Source: Pseudomonadota bacterium (lineage in GTDB: Bacteria > Pseudomonadota > Alphaproteobacteria > Paracaedibacterales > CAIULA01). Taken from it: a stretch of 12,928 bases of DNA. Each line of letters opens with the position of its first letter. The stretch's first letter is position 1. Positions 4,741 to 12,928 of this stretch are shown piece by piece. Position numbers and translations under genes: made by a program. The stretch spans positions 1 to 12,928 of the forward strand of contig JAJZHT010000018.1 of the NCBI GenBank assembly GCA_021804455.1, in the 5' to 3' direction. The notes below the pieces were generated by a model. The model was not told the origin of the DNA and searched no databases. It was given only the letters and a program-made list of their open reading frames with translations.

Positions 4741-4993
4741 GGAAAACTGCGGATTTTATCTTCCACAGTAATGTATAAATTTCCTTGGGTATACGCCGGG
4801 TATACTTTTGAGACTCCCTAGCCTACAGCAAAGTAAAACTATTTTCCAAATCTCTAGAAATGGGGCTAAAAAGGCTAAAAAACGGTAAAAACTAGTGTTT
4901 CTGCGGATTACAGCCCCCTGCCAAAAGGCTAAAGAGGGGCTAAATGTTGCTAAAAGTAACTTTATAAAACTTAAGCAGCATTCGTGAACGATA
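4741..4993. other. Non-coding junction after tRNA-Thr: probable attachment region of an integrative element
   Basis: No gene is seen here. Immediately past the tRNA CCA end lie two exact GGGTATAC repeats (4787-4794 and 4798-4805) with an 11-bp period, then GGCTAAA repeats at 4864, 4873, 4927 and 4938 and a related TGCTAAA at 4948. A 9-bp direct repeat CTGCGGATT occurs at 4747-4755 and 4901-4909. AGCCCC (4912-4917) and GGGGCT (4936-4941) could form a weak hairpin. Helically phased repeats next to a tRNA 3' end are typical of arm-type binding sites for P4-like tyrosine recombinases. That is inference, because no integrase gene or second copy of the tRNA end is seen in the window. Confidence 0.5.
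4787..4805. repeat. Paired GGGTATAC direct repeats, one helical turn apart
   Basis: Two identical 8-bp copies each contain the palindrome GTATAC and are separated by GCC, giving an 11-bp centre-to-centre spacing. Such phasing puts two bound protein subunits on the same face of DNA. Candidate integrase or excisionase arm sites. Confidence 0.6.
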
Positions 4994-5015
4994 AAGCCGA
5001 AGCGATATAAAATGG

Positions 5016-5489
5016 TTATAGGTTATAAGATTGGAAGAGGTGTTCGATGGAGCATTGATATTTTCTGCGGAAGGTTTTGGCTTGAGCCCATTTGTGTTCA
5101 ATAGGATTAAGGTCTGGGCTGTAGGCTGGCAGATACTGTAAAGTATGACCGGCATTTTTTATCGTCATTTGCATGGTTTGGTTTTTATGAAAAGCAGCAT
5201 TGTCCATAACAAGGATACTATTGGGTGGCAGCTTTGGCAGTAAGTCTTTTTCTATCCAAGCTGTAAAGACTTCTGTATTAATGTTACCCTGGAAGAGGCT
5301 CACCGTTAAGAGGGCCTTACCGATAAGAGCGCCAATGACATTAGTTCTCCCTTTAGCGCCCCAGTCATGTTTTCCATAACATCGATGTCCTTTTAAGGCA
5401 TACCCATGAGTTCTTGGCATATCATGGGCAAACCCTGACTCATCAACATAAACAATCGTCCTATCAGCTTCTTGATAAGCTTGTATCAT
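5016..5489 (-). CDS. IS630 transposase, C-terminal frame (DDE catalytic part)
   Basis: This is the catalytic half of the transposase, with the RNase H-like triad: D16 in VYVDESGF, D96 in ILVMDNAAFH and E131 in LNPIEHKW, counted from the Met at 5489. The last two are 35 positions apart, as expected for the Tc1/mariner-IS630 superfamily. The frame is open upstream to the A8 run at 5540-5547 (reading TLYHPKAKEEERHAFCQ before the Met), so the functional protein is probably a fusion of about 274 residues made by slippage or frameshifting from the N-terminal frame. The stop lies inside the left inverted repeat. If slippage does not occur, this copy is inactive. Confidence 0.88.
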   Translation of the reverse strand: MIQAYQEADRTIVYVDESGFAHDMPRTHGYALKGHRCYGKHDWGAKGRTNVIGALIGKALLTVSLFQGNINTEVFTAWIEKDLLPKLPPNSILVMDNAAFHKNQTMQMTIKNAGHTLQYLPAYSPDLNPIEHKWAQAKTFRRKYQCSIEHLFQSYNL

Positions 5490-5841
5490 CTGACAAAATG
5501 CATGCCGTTCTTCTTCTTTGGCCTTGGGATGATAAAGAGTTTTTTTTAAACGTTATCCCAAGACGCTTCAAGGCATCCCGGATACCCGTTGGGCTTGCTT
5601 TCAAACGCTTGGCTCTTTCATAATGATAAGCATCAGGATAAGCCTCAACATCTTTCCTTAAAGCTTCTCTGTCTATCTTTAGGGAAGGCTTATTGCGCCC
5701 CTTCTTAGCCATTAAACGCTTTGTCCAACGCAAAACACTCATCTTACCGATACCAAAGCGTTTAGCAACTCCTTCCATCGTCAATCCTTCCTTGCGGCGA
5801 ATCAACAATACCTTACGGCGAAAATCTAGCGAATAGGTCAT
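5464..5841 (-). CDS. IS630 transposase, N-terminal frame (HTH DNA-binding part)
   Basis: This is the DNA-binding half of the IS630 transposase. The start is taken at 5841 (MTYSLDFRRKVL), the usual IS630 beginning, behind a weak AGGG; an in-frame ATG at 5859 inside the right inverted repeat would add six residues. The helix-turn-helix is visible in GLTMEGVAKRFGIGKMSVLRW. Homology runs as far as GIRDALKRLGITFKK, where the frame meets a run of eight A residues (minus strand; 5540-5547 on plus). After that the frame reads an unrelated tail to its stop at 5464. The catalytic half continues in another frame, reached by a +1 shift. Confidence 0.85.
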   Translation of the reverse strand: MTYSLDFRRKVLLIRRKEGLTMEGVAKRFGIGKMSVLRWTKRLMAKKGRNKPSLKIDREALRKDVEAYPDAYHYERAKRLKASPTGIRDALKRLGITFKKNSLSSQGQRRRTACILSDDTSLSRS

Positions 5842-5877
5842 ACACCCTACTATAACCATTTTATATCGCTTCGGCTA

Positions 5878-6193
5878 TAAATCATAGATTTTTTTATTCT
5901 TTTCCTTCCTCAACCTTTTTTTGCCACAGCAGTCTTCTTAATGACTCTTTCACCAGAAGAGAATGCTTTATCGTCGTTTTTCTCCTAAGGTGTGCTGAGT
6001 TTAGTAATTTTCTCTAATTTTGCCATGACCTAAGCAAGTTACATAAATTTAGGCTGCTATCGCAGAGAATTCCTAGGTTTAAGAGGGTTTGGCTATCCCA
6101 AAGGAGTGCAAGCTAATACCTCTCCATTCCCCTAAAAAGCATCAAATAACGCTGTTTTGTATCAAATTCGTCACTATTCTATCAAAAAAGCAC
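5878..6193. other. Non-coding stretch between the IS and the control region
   Basis: No convincing gene is present. On the minus strand a 39-codon frame at 6026-5910 begins MAKLEKITKLSTP, meets an in-frame TAG, then continues EKNDDKAFSSGERVIKKTAV and ends AKKG before TGA. Its composition looks protein-like and it may be a gene remnant, but it is too short to identify. Confidence 0.4.
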
Positions 6194-6895: not shown

Positions 6896-9388
6896 ATGAT
6901 TGTAGTCAACAATCCAGTTGAAAAGACACCCTTATCTCCTGTTATCCACGAGTGTCTGCAAACGTTAGGAGCTGACACTCAAGATTTAGACAAAAGTTTT
7001 TCCTTTGAGAGCTGGACGCGCTGGGGGAAGAATAACCGTTATACGGCTAAACTGATTCGTGGCAGGAGGGGCAATGAAGGGATTGTGTTTCAAGATTTTG
7101 CTTCTTGTGATAAACCCAAAATTGCTTTCTTTCAAGAGGTTCCAGACTTATCTGACGAAGAGATCAACCATCGCAAGACGCTGACAGAACAAGCGTATCA
7201 AGAAGCCGTTGCCGAAATGCAACGAAAGCAAGAAGAAGCCGCCATCCTGGCTAATCATCTTTGGCAAGAAGCTTCTCAAGAAGGACACTCCAACTATTTA
7301 AAACAAAAGCAGGTTTTATCCTATGGTCTGCGTTTTAGCGCCGATCGGTATGGGCGTTTCTTGGTTATCCCCTTATACGATACCCAGGGTAAACTTTGGA
7401 ATGTGCAAAAGATTTATGATCCCCAGCCTGATCCGTCTAATCATAAATGGTTTTTAACGGGAGGACGGAAAAAGGGTTGCTTTTATGTTCTGGGCCATCC
7501 TCTCCGTCAGGAATCGGTGGGTAATCCTTATCTTATTTGTGAGGGATACGCGACAGGCGCCAGTCTTCATGCAGCGACGGGCCTATCGGTGGTGGTTGCT
7601 TTCGATGCTAATAATCTTGACCCTGTGCTGGCTTCCCTTCAAGAGGCTTTGCCCAGTTTAGAAGTTATGATTGCGGCTGATAATGACCAATGGCACGCAA
7701 AGGGTGTCAACAAAGGTTTAGAAGAAGCCCAAAAAGCGGCTTCTGTGTTTGGCTGCTCTGTCATCTATCCAACCTTTAAGGCTGAGCATCATGTTTTAAA
7801 ACCGACAGACTTTAATGATCTCCACTGTCTTGAAGGCTTAGAGGCGGTTCAAAACCAAGTTAAACTTGCAAGACACAAGGACGTTTGGCATAATCCCCAA
7901 ACAATTCATCATGACCTTTTACCTGTCGAACCACTACCGTTGGCCATGGTACCGGAATCCTTAAAACTCTGGTTACAGGATATTTCTTACAGGATGCAAT
8001 GCCCTTTAGAACAGGCGGCTATTCCAGCGTTAGTTATGATAGGCAGTGTGATAGGAGCGGGTTGTTCAATCCGACCCAAGCGTCATGATTCTTGGATGAT
8101 TGTTCCAAACCTTTGGGGCGGGATTATTGGTCCTCCTAGCAGCTTAAAGTCCCCTGCGCTTGCTGAAACTCTGAGTCCTCTGGTTCATTTAGAAAAAGAA
8201 GCACGAGAAGAGTTTCAAGCTGAACAAGAAAATTATCTCCGTACTCTAGAAGCCTATAAAATTATGAAGGACGCCAAAGTCTCGCAGATTAAAAGCGGTC
8301 TTAAATCAAGCCAGGGCAGTTTATCCTATGACATAATTGCAGGAGAAATGAATCAGCTTGAGATCCCTGAAGAACCCAGTTGTCGGCGTTTTAAGACCAA
8401 CGATACCACGATTGAGAAGATGACGGAACTGTTAGAGCAAAACCCGCGAGGTTTGATGCTTTTTCGGGATGAGTTGATGGGGTTATTAACCATGTGGGAT
8501 CGTCAAGGTCGTGAAGCCGATCGGGCTTTTTACTTGGAAGCATGGAATGGATATGGTTCTCATACAACCGATCGTATTGAAAGAGGAACCACCCACTGTG
8601 ATCATATGTGTGTGTCAATTATGGGCGGGACACAACCCACCAAAATACTGCGTTATCTGCAAAAAGCGATTCGTGGCATCGACAATGATGGCTTGGTTCA
8701 GCGTTTTCAACTTTTTGTTTATCCTGATGACCACAAAAATTGGAAGCTGGTTGATCACTATCCTGATCAAGCGGCAAAACAGAAAGTTTTTCAAATTGTT
8801 AAGACGATTAGCGAGATGGACTTTATACATCAGGGAGCTTATCAAGAGGAAGAAAAGGGTATCCCTTATTATCGGTTTTCTCAAGAGGCGCAAGAGCTTT
8901 TTTATGAGTGGCTAACAGAGCTTGAAACGGTCAAACTTCGTGGTTCTGAAGACCCTATTCTTGTGGAACATTTAGCAAAATACCGAAAACTCATGCCGGC
9001 GCTGGCTTTGATTTTTCATGTTATTGAGGTAGCTAATGGCACAGCTGACGGGGATGTCTCGCTAGAAGCAGCCCAAAAAGCAGCGGCCTGGTGTGATTTT
9101 CTCGAACTCCATGCCAAGCGCATCTATGGTATGGCACGGAACATCACGCTTTCTGCAGCCGCCATCCTGTTTAAAAACCTTAAGCAACATAAGTTAGAAA
9201 ACGGGTTTACCGTGCGTGATGTTTATAGGAAAGAGTGGAGTCTTTTATCGGATAAAGAAGTGGCTCAGGATGCTTGTGACGAACTGGTTCATCTTGGATG
9301 GTTAAAGGAAATTGTTACCGAGACGGCGGTTGGCCAAAAAGGAAAAGTTACTTATAAAATTAATCCCAAGATAGGAGCTAAGCTATGA
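6896..9388 (+). CDS. Primase-helicase: Toprim domain plus DUF3987 P-loop domain
   Basis: This 830-residue protein is probably the replication initiator/primase-helicase of the element. The N-terminal ~150 residues include a K/E/Q-rich helical stretch (about 95-130). Next comes a TraC-like primase region (FLVIPLYDTQGKLWNVQKI). The Toprim domain (about 205-290) has the catalytic E216 in LICEGYATGAS and the acidic D262-N-D264 in MIAADNDQ. The C-terminal half is DUF3987-like: a Walker A-like loop GPPSSLKSP (412-420, K418), a Walker B-like LMLFRDELMGLL (D525, E526) and a sensor-like SIMGGTQP. A zinc-finger motif is not seen. Shine-Dalgarno AAGGAAAG lies at 6882-6889. The stop overlaps the polymerase start by four bases (ATGA). 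Domain calls come from motifs; the replication role is inferred from them and from the polymerase next door. Confidence 0.87.
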   Translation: MIVVNNPVEKTPLSPVIHECLQTLGADTQDLDKSFSFESWTRWGKNNRYTAKLIRGRRGNEGIVFQDFASCDKPKIAFFQEVPDLSDEEINHRKTLTEQAYQEAVAEMQRKQEEAAILANHLWQEASQEGHSNYLKQKQVLSYGLRFSADRYGRFLVIPLYDTQGKLWNVQKIYDPQPDPSNHKWFLTGGRKKGCFYVLGHPLRQESVGNPYLICEGYATGASLHAATGLSVVVAFDANNLDPVLASLQEALPSLEVMIAADNDQWHAKGVNKGLEEAQKAASVFGCSVIYPTFKAEHHVLKPTDFNDLHCLEGLEAVQNQVKLARHKDVWHNPQTIHHDLLPVEPLPLAMVPESLKLWLQDISYRMQCPLEQAAIPALVMIGSVIGAGCSIRPKRHDSWMIVPNLWGGIIGPPSSLKSPALAETLSPLVHLEKEAREEFQAEQENYLRTLEAYKIMKDAKVSQIKSGLKSSQGSLSYDIIAGEMNQLEIPEEPSCRRFKTNDTTIEKMTELLEQNPRGLMLFRDELMGLLTMWDRQGREADRAFYLEAWNGYGSHTTDRIERGTTHCDHMCVSIMGGTQPTKILRYLQKAIRGIDNDGLVQRFQLFVYPDDHKNWKLVDHYPDQAAKQKVFQIVKTISEMDFIHQGAYQEEEKGIPYYRFSQEAQELFYEWLTELETVKLRGSEDPILVEHLAKYRKLMPALALIFHVIEVANGTADGDVSLEAAQKAAAWCDFLELHAKRIYGMARNITLSAAAILFKNLKQHKLENGFTVRDVYRKEWSLLSDKEVAQDACDELVHLGWLKEIVTETAVGQKGKVTYKINPKIGAKL

Positions 9389-11550
9389 GTCGGTGGTTAG
9401 CAGAATTTAAACGTAAAACAGATACCAGCCCCACAATGTCGGGAATGTCGGTGTATGACCTAAGCCTTTTAGGAAAAAATACAGCTCTCCAGAAACAAGG
9501 TGGGCGTTTGGGGGCTGATAGGGATAAGGGCGACCAAGAGATCACCTTAAAGGATTTTAGGAATGATCTTGAAAAGATTTTTAACGCCATGAGCGCCTTT
9601 TTACAAAAATATCAACCTCAGGCTTCTCTTATCATTCCTAAAAAAGATACTATCGATCAGACAGCAGAAGCAGCTCTGGCAAACAAGTTTTTGAGTGGCT
9701 TGCAGGAGGAATTGCCTTATAGAAAGGAATCTGAAACGTTGCCTGCTCTCGTTGCTTCACTGACTCTTTCCCCTCCTATGAAGAGTGCCTACAAGCTTAT
9801 AACCAACCTTAGCGAAGCCCACGTTATTCTGGCTGATTTAGTCGCCAAGGGAGAGCTTGTAGGATTGGATATAGAAACCACGGGGTTATTTCCGCATGAA
9901 GGGGCTAAGGCACGTTTGTTGCAGCTGTCGCCTCAGGAAGGTCCGGTTTATATTATTGATTTATTTGAGGTAGGGGGACTGGCTGCTCTTCAAGAACCTT
10001 TGTCCCACCTCAAGGCGGTGGCCCATAACGCGGTGTTTGAGATGAAGTTTTTTAAAGCAGAAGGGATTGACTTAACCTTGGATTGTACCCTGTTAGCTCA
10101 TCATGCGTTGACAGGCGAGATGAGCAAACTGTCAGACTTATGTCAGCACTATTTAGGTATTGAGCTGGATAAAACCCTCCAAACGTCAAACTGGCAAGGA
10201 GATTTAACATCTGACCAACTCCAGTATGCCGCTGCCGATGCTTTTTATACCCATCTTCTGTTTGATAAGCTTTGGCCCCTAATCCAGAAGCAAGGATCAG
10301 AACGTGTCTATCAGGTTTGTAAGCAAGCGCAACCTGCGGCAGCCTTGATGGAATTAACCGGCATGCCATTTGACGCAAAAGAGCATCAAACGCTTTTAGA
10401 TCATTTGATTGAGGAACGGGACGCTTACCAAACCAAGCTCCGTGACCATCTCGGGGACATCAATGTCAATTCCAGCAAACAACTGGGTATCTGGCTAAGC
10501 TCGGTTCTAGAAAGGTCTGGCAAGGCTTCCTTGAAACAGTGGCCCCGAACGGCGACAGGTCAGTTGGCAACATCAGAGAAAGATTTTAAGAAAGGCTTAT
10601 TGCTTCTTCCTCAAACTGAACAAGCTTTGATCAAAGATTGCTTTTTACCCTATAAAGCTTTGGAAAAACAAGTCAGCTCTTTTGGCGAAGGATTAGCCCA
10701 GTCTGTTTCTCCAGCCACCGGACGGATTCATGCCAGTTTCAAGATGACAGGCACACGGACAGGGCGGTTTTCGTGTAGCAGACCGAATCTCCAACAAATT
10801 CCAAGAAACAAAGTGTTTCGGGGTTTATTTAAGGCGCCTCAGGGCTGCACCTTGGTGATTGCTGACTATTCGCAGATGGAACTACGGGTGGCAGCGATTG
10901 TGGCCAAAGAAACAAAACTTCTCGAAGCTTACGAACAAGGCCAAGATACCCATGCCTTGACCGCGGGTATGTTGCTCAAGAAGAACCCTGAAGAGGTGAC
11001 GAAACAAGAGCGGCAACTGGCCAAAGCCGTGAACTTTGGTTTGTTATATGGTCAAGGAGCCAAAGGGTTAAAAGACTATGCTGCAAGCAGCTATGGAGTT
11101 GAGATCACAGAAGCTGAGGCCAAGGCTTATCGTGAAGCTTGGTTTGCAACCTATCCTGCTTTTGCGGCTTGGCATCGGTTGGAAGGGTTCAACAGCAAGA
11201 TGAGAATGCAGGTCACCACCCCTTTAGGACGTACCCGCAGGTTTTCTGGTGCTGACACAGGAGATACTTACAGCGCCACCAAAGCTTATAATACTCCGAT
11301 TCAAGGAGGGGCTGCGGAAGTCATGTTAGCAGCTTTAAACAAACTGCCTCACCTGTTGGAAAACTTTGACGCTCAACCTCTGGCTGTTATCCATGATGAA
11401 GTCATTGTAGAAGCTTCTGTAGCGGATGCCCCCCAAGTTGCCCAAGCCCTTGAACTGGCGATGATCCAAGGCATGCTCGATGTTTTCCCAGAAGCGTGTA
11501 CGCGGGGTCTGGTTGAAGCTACCATTGCCCCATCCTGGGCGGAAAAGTAA
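9385..11550 (+). CDS. Family-A DNA polymerase (Pol I-like) with 3'-5' exonuclease domain, no 5' nuclease
   Basis: This 721-residue enzyme should copy DNA with proofreading. Residues 1-135 are a non-conserved extension. The DnaQ-like exonuclease follows, with Exo I LDIETTG (D162, E164), Exo II AHNAVFEMKF (E219 where Asp is usual), D233 in LDCTLLAHH and Exo III YAAADAFYTH (D285). The polymerase domain has TGRFSCSRPNLQQIP, motif A ADYSQMELR (D494, E499), motif B RQLAKAVNFGLLYG (R543, K547, F551, Y555) and motif C HDEV (D671). All expected polymerase catalytic residues are present. It is shorter than cellular Pol I because the 5'-nuclease domain is absent, as in phage-type and mobile-element enzymes. 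The ATGA overlap with the primase-helicase implies translational coupling, so this is more likely an element replicase than the host repair enzyme. Confidence 0.96.
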   Translation: MSRWLAEFKRKTDTSPTMSGMSVYDLSLLGKNTALQKQGGRLGADRDKGDQEITLKDFRNDLEKIFNAMSAFLQKYQPQASLIIPKKDTIDQTAEAALANKFLSGLQEELPYRKESETLPALVASLTLSPPMKSAYKLITNLSEAHVILADLVAKGELVGLDIETTGLFPHEGAKARLLQLSPQEGPVYIIDLFEVGGLAALQEPLSHLKAVAHNAVFEMKFFKAEGIDLTLDCTLLAHHALTGEMSKLSDLCQHYLGIELDKTLQTSNWQGDLTSDQLQYAAADAFYTHLLFDKLWPLIQKQGSERVYQVCKQAQPAAALMELTGMPFDAKEHQTLLDHLIEERDAYQTKLRDHLGDINVNSSKQLGIWLSSVLERSGKASLKQWPRTATGQLATSEKDFKKGLLLLPQTEQALIKDCFLPYKALEKQVSSFGEGLAQSVSPATGRIHASFKMTGTRTGRFSCSRPNLQQIPRNKVFRGLFKAPQGCTLVIADYSQMELRVAAIVAKETKLLEAYEQGQDTHALTAGMLLKKNPEEVTKQERQLAKAVNFGLLYGQGAKGLKDYAASSYGVEITEAEAKAYREAWFATYPAFAAWHRLEGFNSKMRMQVTTPLGRTRRFSGADTGDTYSATKAYNTPIQGGAAEVMLAALNKLPHLLENFDAQPLAVIHDEVIVEASVADAPQVAQALELAMIQGMLDVFPEACTRGLVEATIAPSWAEK
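9431..9452 (-). repeat. 22-bp sequence repeated in inverse orientation at 12587-12608
   Basis: Inside the polymerase's N-terminal extension, encoding roughly TMSGMSV, lies a 22-bp stretch whose reverse complement is found exactly at 12587-12608. The core on this strand contains ATGTCGGGAATGTCGG, a 9-bp-period near-tandem repeat. Its function is unknown. Confidence 0.8.
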
Positions 11551-11741: not shown

Positions 11742-11865
11742 TTCCTAAGTCTCCCGAACTCAAGAAAACCAAGTCCCAGTAAGGGTTTTAAGGGGCTTTG
11801 AGGGGTTGGAAAGCTTGACTTTTCCATCAAAACAGCCCGGGGTGGGTCTTGTTAAGTGATTTTTT

Positions 11866-11878: not shown

Positions 11879-12256
11879 ATGGTTTTTAAGCCTGGAAAGA
11901 GCGGAAACCCTTGTGGACGACCAAAAAAGAGAGTCTCGAAGTCTTTTGATTTACAATCGTTTATCAAAGAACATCAACACGATATCAATAAAGTTGGCAA
12001 GATTATTCTTGAGCAAGCCCTAAAGCATGAAGAGCCATGGGCGATGAAGCTGTGCCTGGAGCCTTTTGATCCCAAACCCCAAACTTCTGTGACCATCAGC
12101 CAGGAAGAAGGCCAAGAGGTCACCATGACGCTCCAGGGTTTGACGCAAACCTTAAGCCCTGAGGATCAGCAAACGTTTCTTAAATTATGGATGAAGAGTC
12201 AAAGAGGCGTCCCTGCGTTTGCCTATCCTCTAGGGGAAGACACGATCAAACAGTAG
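11879..12256 (+). CDS. DUF5681-type protein (phage/mobile-element associated, unknown function)
   Basis: The 125-residue protein starts MVFKPGKSGNPCGRPKKRVS, a close fit to the KPGQSGNPxGRPK motif that defines DUF5681 at the N-terminus. Family members often lie just before phage terminase genes. The rest (about residues 25-125) is a helical region followed by a polar C-terminus and has no catalytic motif I recognise. No terminase or other packaging gene follows in the window, so it may be a small-terminase-like or DNA-binding remnant, or an independent regulator. The start is set by AGGGAG 7 bases upstream of ATG. It lies about 330 bases beyond the polymerase and may have its own transcript. 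Confidence 0.8.
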   Translation: MVFKPGKSGNPCGRPKKRVSKSFDLQSFIKEHQHDINKVGKIILEQALKHEEPWAMKLCLEPFDPKPQTSVTISQEEGQEVTMTLQGLTQTLSPEDQQTFLKLWMKSQRGVPAFAYPLGEDTIKQ

Positions 12257-12287
12257 AGGGTCACGGTCAAATAGGGTCTTAGGGAAC

Positions 12288-12331
12288 CTTTGAGGCAGGA
12301 TAGAGGTAGAATAATACCCTATGCCTCAGGG
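12288..12331 (+). terminator. Imperfect stem-loop after the DUF5681 gene, possible terminator
   Basis: TGAGGCA (12291-12297) pairs with TGCCTCA (12322-12328). The inner arm TAG-a-GGTA (12301-12308) pairs with TACCCTA (12315-12321) around a 6-base loop GAATAA. It begins 32 bases after the stop codon. No U-tract follows, so termination is only a guess; it could instead protect the transcript end. Confidence 0.3.
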
Positions 12332-12436
12332 ACTTTGGCTGTCAGTATTGATTAAGAGCCTATGGTCGTATGATCAACTGTCTGAAGGTCTGGGTTTTTC
12401 TTACTAATCTTCACTTCCTTAACCCTGCCAAAAACA

Positions 12437-12484
12437 CCCCCCAGAACCTCAAAAAATGACCCTGGGGGGGCGGAGGGGGAGGGG
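12437..12484. repeat. CCCCCCAG/CTGGGGGG inverted repeat fused to a G-rich block
   Basis: CCCCCCAG (12437-12444) and CTGGGGGG (12462-12469) form an 8-bp stem over 17 bases. The plus strand then has G-runs of 7, 5 and 4 (12464-12484), enough to consider a G-quadruplex. Read on the minus strand, the hairpin is followed by TGTTTTTGG, a poor terminator-like tail, but no minus-strand gene leads into it. Confidence 0.45.
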
Positions 12485-12586
12485 ATCAAGCCCTTGGATA
12501 GCCTAGGTCTAAGAATCCTACTCCAGTCCTCGGTCTGCACTTGTTATCAAACTTAGCCAATTTTCTTAAAAGATCTAGGTTAGTGT

Positions 12587-12608
12587 ACCGACATTCCCGA
12601 CATTGTGG
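12587..12608 (+). repeat. Second copy (inverted) of the 22-bp repeat, with internal CCGACATT tandem
   Basis: CCGACATT occurs at 12588-12595 and again at 12597-12604, a 9-bp period. The surrounding 22 bases are the exact reverse complement of 9431-9452 in the polymerase gene. Here the sequence is not in a supported gene. Confidence 0.8.
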
Positions 12609-12776
12609 AACACCGGATGGTATGAGTCCTTATATGGGGAAGGTTCTTCTTATATCAAACCAATTTAAATTGATAGCGTTATATCTTGATGGTTGTATGG
12701 ATACCTGTTTTTCTCCTTTTAGACGAAATATCCCCTTTTTTCTGTTTGAGTAAAAACTGTAAAAGGCGGTTTGTTG

Positions 12777-12797
12777 CCATTAAGGCTTCCTTAATGG
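12777..12797 (+). promoter_or_regulatory. Perfect palindrome/hairpin just upstream of the signal-peptide gene
   Basis: Arms CCATTAAGG and CCTTAATGG (9 bp each) enclose CTT. It ends 11 bases before the start codon and overlaps the only Shine-Dalgarno-like bases (GGGA, 12796-12799). It could be an operator, or an RNA hairpin limiting ribosome access. Confidence 0.55.
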
Positions 12798-12808
12798 GAT
12801 AGACAAGA

Positions 12809-12928
12809 ATGCACTTTCCTTTTAAACGCCCCCTCAGTTATCTCGTCCTCTTCAGCTTTTTCTTCCAAACGCTTTGGCCGAGTACAGTCTTGGCCTTTTA
12901 CCCGGGGCGAGCCATTTGGAAAGATCAT
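12809..12928 (+). CDS. N-terminus of an exported protein of unknown function (partial)
   Basis: Forty codons are open to the window edge. The N-terminus MHFPFKRPLSYLVLFSFFFQ has the shape of a signal peptide: a basic start, a hydrophobic core (LVLFSFFFQTLW) and a likely signal peptidase I site at STVLA, followed by FYPGRAIWKDH. The product should be secreted to or across the inner membrane. The start is chosen because an in-frame TAA lies a few codons upstream. Expression may be controlled by the 21-bp palindrome that ends 11 bases before the ATG. The mature protein cannot be identified from the few residues available. Confidence 0.6.
   Translation, partial: MHFPFKRPLSYLVLFSFFFQTLWPSTVLAFYPGRAIWKDH

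Follow-up and report, generated by a model that had tools for sequence, protein, structure and literature searches.

The window analysed here (the whole stretch of 12,928 nt) contains two perfect, mutually inverted 22-bp copies of one sequence, which we consider quite likely to form, as its two arms, an iteron-type origin from which a mobile module replicates. The sites have a 9-bp internal period, a defined position behind the primase stop codon and an inverted partner; pairs of this kind recur behind DUF3987 genes, and their sequence co-varies with that of the primase. From these features we infer that the sites are bound and act as an origin, and that the split copy in the window may still work. 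The module would comprise an AlpA-like helix-turn-helix (HTH) protein, a DUF3987 primase-helicase and a polymerase, and would be of satellite or plasmid type.

Two inverted copies of a 9-bp-period site bracket the polymerase gene

The two copies (Table 1) are exact reverse complements of each other (100% over 22 nt) with 3134 nt between them, as the first-pass annotation had read from the letters alone. The core, TGTCGGGAATGTCGG (9437-9451), consists of two half-sites at 9 bp spacing and begins 51 bp past the first base of the primase stop codon, and the 9-bp period reported earlier was confirmed (TGTCGGGAA TGTCGG). The similarity of the two copies extends further, from 9431-9477 against 12608-12561 (83% over 48 bp, E 5e-7), with the 22-bp match as its best-conserved part. 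Chance had been judged an improbable source of the match, and indeed dinucleotide shuffles of the window gave 0.15 expected matches to the 15-mer core at ≤3 mismatches against two found, both perfect, the pattern being taken from the 22-bp match itself. The proximal copy is read as TMSGMSV within the polymerase ORF, and the distal copy falls in no ORF of ≥80 aa and ends at a stop in the polymerase frame (MSVH*), which agrees with the earlier assignment of one copy to coding and the other to non-coding DNA. The genome-wide count of copies that had been called for was also made: a 17-mer at ≤2 mismatches occurs twice in the source genome G000 (1.2 Mb, 174 contigs, 84% complete, with the window as the whole of contig C126), just as the window pair.

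Table 1 Coordinates of the sites and genes discussed in the text
Feature	Position	Strand	Remark
AlpA-like helix-turn-helix ORF, 71 aa	6331..6546	+	Pfam and PHROGs hits, to HTH_17 and an excisionase family, are those of the relative on G001 C195, not of the window ORF
Primase-helicase (Toprim_3 + DUF3987), 830 aa	6896..9388	+	Pfam, PHROGs; proposed initiator
Last 88 primase codons, with FTVRDVYRKEW	9122..9385	+	Co-variation with half-site sequence; putative site-recognition domain
Family-A DNA polymerase with 3'-5' exonuclease, 721 aa	9385..11550	+	Between the two arms
Proximal copy of the 22-bp match	9431..9452	+	Inside the polymerase ORF
Repeat unit recognisable at the proximal copy	9431..9481	+	80% to G001 C13 array
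DUF5681 protein	11879..12256	+	51%-identical relative behind G001 C7 polymerase
Repeat unit at the distal copy	12561..12609	-	Similarity to G001 arrays
Distal, inverted copy of the 22-bp match	12587..12608	-	Non-coding

The window primase combines Toprim_3 and DUF3987 in one protein, and its PHROGs match is a helicase family; the assignment of DUF3987 as a helicase is given as a prediction in the cited text (PMC5862659). The polymerase start overlaps the primase stop (ATGA). Viral contigs gave only distant relatives of the polymerase and no relative of the primase by alignment, and genome contigs gave one relative of the polymerase, a G001 contig. AT-rich stretches lie near both arms, with a GC content of 0.32 at 9550-9649 (inside the pair) and 0.30 around 12644-12747 (outside it), and 2.4% of the 100-bp stretches of the window are at GC ≤0.32. 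Between the arms lies a 2.1-kb polymerase gene. The single site per arm and the 3.1 kb between the arms are the weak points of the window for the origin reading.

Elsewhere in the window, Rfam detected two tRNAs and nothing else, and an IS630-family element (4992-5879), bounded by 30-bp terminal inverted repeats that are 97% complementary and carrying its transposase in two ORFs, lies near the tRNA-Lys and tRNA-Thr genes. An adhesin-like ORF starts at 12809-12928; in its signal region it is similar to a large haemagglutinin-repeat protein, with an open frame of 3192 aa, that is encoded behind the same polymerase on G001 C13. An adhesin-like ORF is the next gene downstream in both the window and C13.

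The copies are single units of a 63-bp repeat tied to one polymerase family

Comparison with G001, the sole other same-genus genome among the 143 searched, indicated that each 22-bp copy represents a single 63-bp repeat unit. Eight copies of the 15-mer at 0-1 mismatch were found in G001, all tied to the polymerase family, and a further four at 2 mismatches are of a kind that a reversed control yields too (five in G001). On contig C195 the N-terminal part of the polymerase holds three units, each exactly 63 bp long; C13 carries four inverted units of exactly 63 bp and one partial unit behind a polymerase stop; and C7 carries one good inverted unit and an adjoining damaged unit, likewise behind a polymerase stop. 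The window has one unit per side, and its number of coding units differs from that of C195 (one versus three) in steps of 21 codons. The motif is absent from the C30 polymerase, which is 57-60% identical; whether homologous polymerases lack the TMSGMSV insert had been listed as a check in the first-pass annotation. The coding and inverted halves lie on different contigs in G001. C7 and C13 share 119 identical bases of the polymerase 3' end and diverge thereafter, so the same 3' end stands in at least two contexts in the G001 assembly.

Outside the units, none of six comparisons between coding and inverted copies exceeded shuffles. The flank 5' of the unit is similar between the two coding copies, and the polymerase-proximal flank is similar between the two G001 inverted arrays. 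Within window 12257-12806, from the DUF5681 gene to the adhesin-like gene, the unit is the only clear match to the intergenic DNA of C13 (E 6e-8) and C7 (E 9e-6). Identity at third codon positions of the primase is only 46%. Divergence is lower in the core than in the adjoining 29 bp, both in four coding units (0.033 vs 0.414) and in eight non-coding units, two of them with a damaged core (0.221 vs 0.410, p 0.01). This lower divergence favours a role at the DNA level and would do so more strongly had the units not been found through the core. Among the coding copies alone, 3/3 core third positions are invariant compared with 4/10 beside the core, on too few sites, and codon-position tests inside the units do not separate protein from DNA constraint. 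Searches for the core DNA patterns in viral contigs and of the repeat array by blastn against phages and plasmids gave no match.

A second short motif, by eye ~CGGTGGG..TTGTTA, apparently recurs behind these polymerases (window 11829-11854; intergenic DNA of L036 and L087); the region matches between the window and C13 over 26 bp (81%, E 0.005) and between C13 and C7 over 48 bp (83%).

Inverted lag-9 pairs recur behind DUF3987 primase genes

A search with the window primase gave a match in 23 of 385 alphaproteobacterial genomes, its own counted. When the DNA behind the primase stop of nine relatives was read by eye, half-sites at 9 bp were present in seven (all except L124 and L131); they were of varied sequence, occurred in both orientations and often lay inside a small ORF overlapping the primase stop. 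For scoring, the 500 bp past the stop were scanned for a 16-bp block of two 7-base half-sites, 9 bp apart and 6/7 alike, and a locus was called positive when the reverse complement of the block recurred at ≥13/16. The loci examined were the best-scoring ones, up to 30 per search. Set 1 comprised 27 of the 29 loci of one search (the window was left out and L151 was too short) and two plasmid loci, set 2 comprised 28 previously unused loci, and set 3 comprised 28 previously unused loci from another class, in some of which the domain was matched in part only. The 13/16 threshold was set after set 1 had been seen and the motif classes described below after sets 1 and 2; both were fixed for set 3.

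An inverted lag-9 pair was found in 16 of the 29 best-scoring loci of set 1 (6/9 of the first-read loci and 10/20 of the rest), counting L137, which is AT-rich and doubtful and was left out of the half-site correlation and motif-class analyses; set 2 gave the pair in 10 of its 28 best-scoring loci. The control windows for these sets, mostly coding DNA, gave 5/236 (unrelated polA windows), 1/149 and 5/140 (upstream windows) and 0/27 (+500 to +1000). Pooled, 26/57 best-scoring loci of sets 1 and 2 were positive versus 11/525 controls (Fisher p 5e-21), and in set 3, for which the expectation had been recorded in advance, 19/28 best-scoring loci were positive versus 2/131 controls (p 7e-16), the loci being not fully independent because several genomes gave two or three. 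Lag 9 accounted for 16, 10 and 19 loci in sets 1-3, whereas lags 7, 8 and 10-15 each gave 0-4 loci in set 1, 0-3 in set 2 and 0-5 in set 3.

Among the 85 best-scoring loci, 45 were positive, with the first arm starting at a median of 50 bp past the stop (quartiles 36-57) and a median spacing of 59 bp between the arms (quartiles 41-98); a mechanical ORF scan placed the site inside an ORF beginning at the primase stop in 34 of the 45. No pair was detected in the other 40, including G279, whose primase is 45-47% identical over the matched part. Outside the 85, no convincing pair was seen at E. coli K-12 yfjI, a Sulfitobacter plasmid or G001 C30, and plasmids of Salinibacter and Rhodovastum, also outside the counts, gave 13/16 and 15/16. 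The pair search covered arms within 500 bp of the stop, and the window and G001 C195 fell below the score (10/16 and 11/16) because their second arm is distant or on another contig. The open-access literature searched yielded no account of sites of this kind behind DUF3987 genes.

Two further observations concern these loci. The ORF overlapping the primase stop often starts M-x-W or M-x-R-W-L (L138, L143, L157 and others), and the window polymerase has a similar start, MSRWLAEF; a small conserved protein may be fused to the window polymerase. L193, a Rhodovastum 10.7-kb plasmid, is a phage-like record encoding ParA along with a DUF3987 and a capsid protein, in which a long palindromic lag-9 pair starts at the DUF3987 gene stop.

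Half-site sequence co-varies with the primase C-terminus

Over 27 loci, the window and C195 included, half-site similarity correlated with identity in the last 88 primase residues (r 0.32, p 0.0002) and, over 27 loci, with identity in the DUF3987 part (r 0.28, p 0.0002). With the DUF3987 part taken into account, the C-terminus still correlated (partial r 0.18, p 0.002, 27 loci), this partial correlation being the sole correction for phylogeny in the site-protein tests. Correspondingly, primases with R[DEQ][VIA][YF]R[KN].W had TGTC sites in 10/10 cases compared with 3/17 of the others, and those with [FRYHK]GP..[LIF]R had GCTA sites in 5/5 compared with 2/22, both with classes chosen after the fact. 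Among the 19 positive loci of set 3, the first class had TGTC in 2/2 (others 4/17) and the second GCTA in 2/2 (others 3/17). The primase C-terminus matched no DNA-binding fold among the family profiles, and the PDB hits of a profile built from 15 C-termini all stayed below threshold, the best being a transcriptional regulator (E 0.24).

Proposed mechanism of the split origin

Each arm contains two direct half-sites (TGTCGG) at 9-bp spacing, and the arms are mutually inverted. We propose that the primase-helicase binds the two arms, probably by way of its last ~88 residues, and that it then opens the DNA and primes replication in the manner reported for P4 alpha (PMC4234260). Related elements with a detected pair typically have both arms directly behind the primase stop, ~60 bp apart, and in this genus a family-A polymerase stands between them. 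With the polymerase between the arms, one arm becomes coding, as a variable N-terminal linker of the polymerase, and the other lies 3.1 kb away.

More generally, we favour, with less assurance, the view that Pseudomonadota DUF3987 primase-helicases mark a large and so far unnamed set of mobile replicons sharing one origin plan. Inverted 9-bp-period iteron pairs would lie ~50 bp behind the initiator stop, usually inside the next small gene; the half-site sequence would be set by the last ~88 residues of the initiator as a readable specificity code; and in this genus the origin arms would bracket, and partly encode, the replicative polymerase. If true, this would provide a sequence rule for locating the likely origin of common, little-studied satellites, plasmids and islands from DNA alone, and would connect a protein domain with the DNA word that it recognises in a way that can be tested.

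Alternative explanations

The first-pass annotation had offered four candidates for the pair, among which initiator or iteron sites are the sole one that gained support; recombination or inversion and a mobile in-frame repeat fared poorly, as detailed below. Two explanations outside or beside that list have more to recommend them. The sites might be operators through which the primase or the AlpA-like regulator controls downstream transcription with no role in replication, and they do lie between the primase and the downstream genes, in the window and C13 upstream of the adhesin-like gene. We consider this unlikely, since the position is fixed to the primase stop and often falls within the ORF that starts there, the half-site varies with the primase sequence, and the published origin region of a phage-inducible chromosomal island (PICI) has the same look.

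Quite unlikely, in our judgement, is a feature of the protein, in which the polymerase N-terminus carries a 21-residue repeat (SGMSV...GKN) and decayed inverted duplicates of that coding region make up the distal copies. The units are multiples of 3 bp and keep a single frame in the polymerase, and the C13 array is open in the polymerase frame over four units whose order resembles that of the coding ones by eye. A local rearrangement is also seen at C13, where a second polymerase C-terminal fragment adjoins the inverted array (L036 9568-9711, equal to G001 C13 17567-17710); the junction, CGACATTGTGGAAGCC, is similar to both the repeat edge and polymerase codons. However, the similarity of coding and inverted copies ends at the unit edges on both sides, which is unexpected for a recent gene duplicate, the C30 polymerase is without the motif, and other genes behind other DUF3987 primases show the same period in both orientations. 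The first-pass annotation had named a protein-conserved stretch with a distal gene fragment as the case that would overturn its reading. That case does not hold: the C30 polymerase lacks the motif, the C195 polymerase has three copies to the one of the window, and outside the unit no similarity was detected between the distal copy and the polymerase.

Site-specific inversion or recombination flipping the polymerase segment, suggested by a gene bracketed by two exact inverted copies, is very improbable: the core is a direct repeat without palindromic symmetry, the distal copies point the same way at the three loci seen (window, C13 and C7), the only recombinase-like products among the six window ORFs scanned are the two IS630-type transposase pieces, and the arms elsewhere are a median of 59 bp apart. 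We give hardly any credence to a dispersed palindromic short repeat inserting in frame as Rickettsia palindromic elements do; the copy is in frame in a gene of an alphaproteobacterium, but the folding of five single units did not exceed that of shuffles (z from -0.06 to 1.39), and 15-mer copies at 0-1 mismatch in both genus genomes occur only inside, or ≤~1.1 kb behind, this polymerase family. A hairpin or terminator in the RNA downstream of the primase gene is scarcely plausible either, for although inverted arms with a median spacing of 59 bp could base-pair in a transcript at many loci, a five-T run follows the second arm in only 1/45 positive loci, the window arms are 3.1 kb apart, and the 9-bp period within the arms serves no hairpin role.

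Comparison with known replication origins

The split iteron origin proposed here is close in layout to that of PICIs, which in the cited text lies directly 3' of the primase or initiator gene and has two iteron sets flanking an AT-rich stretch; the EcCICFT073 primase together with the origin segment is reported there to maintain a plasmid (PMC6092414). As a control we scored one such origin, without a low-complexity filter, in the E. coli CFT073 island that we take to be EcCICFT073 from its gene content. The island primase has D5_N and DUF5906 domains. Past its stop, lag 9 has the most direct repeats (18), followed by lag 11 (11), and inverted copies are present of TGTCTACCCTGTCTAC (14/16) and at lag 11 (15/18). 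The signature is therefore present at a reportedly working origin served by another helicase family. The proposed origin in the window resembles this one in lying directly 3' of the primase, in the 9-bp lag and in the inverted copy. Its core stands at the PICI-type position, +51 bp from the primase stop, with the distal arm 3.2 kb away, and it has two iteron sets in the form of one inverted site per arm, with multi-unit sets in G001. The PICI initiator is a D5_N/DUF5906 protein, whereas the initiator candidate of the window is a Toprim and DUF3987 protein. Unlike those of the PICI, the two sets of the window are 3.1 kb apart, with a polymerase between them and one set coding.

Satellite phage P4 has a separate crr region. 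Its alpha protein is reported to bind the origin arms, open the DNA and prime replication, and to have a C-terminal winged-helix domain (PMC4234260). Like the window primase, alpha joins a Toprim-type primase to a helicase part in a multifunctional initiator, and the C-terminal DNA-binding domain reported for alpha is paralleled by the one that we propose for the window primase, whose sequence gave no match to the alpha winged helix. The PICMI satellites of Vibrionaceae share with the window an AlpA-type regulator and a primase, as judged from their description; deletion of the primase lowered copy number, their authors searched for it as DUF3987 and DUF5906, and the term iterons is absent from the cited text on them (PMC10803314). 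The palindromic elements of Rickettsia, as described in the cited text, are also repeats lying in frame in alphaproteobacterial genes, but the units of the window have no fold, are not dispersed and are tied to one gene family (PMC10969869).

The proposed placement of an origin arm inside a gene has a counterpart in lambdoid phages, whose origin lies inside gene O and whose extra iterons add in-frame residues, 13 in the O protein of Stx phages according to the cited text (PMC7466680). Candidate iterons of this genus likewise lie in coding sequence and change in number by in-frame steps, of 21 residues compared with 13. The lambda origin is within the initiator gene itself, whereas the window arm is within the gene that follows the proposed initiator (PMC7466680). 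Our reading suggests that a polymerase coding sequence conceals an origin arm, much as gene O contains the lambda origin.
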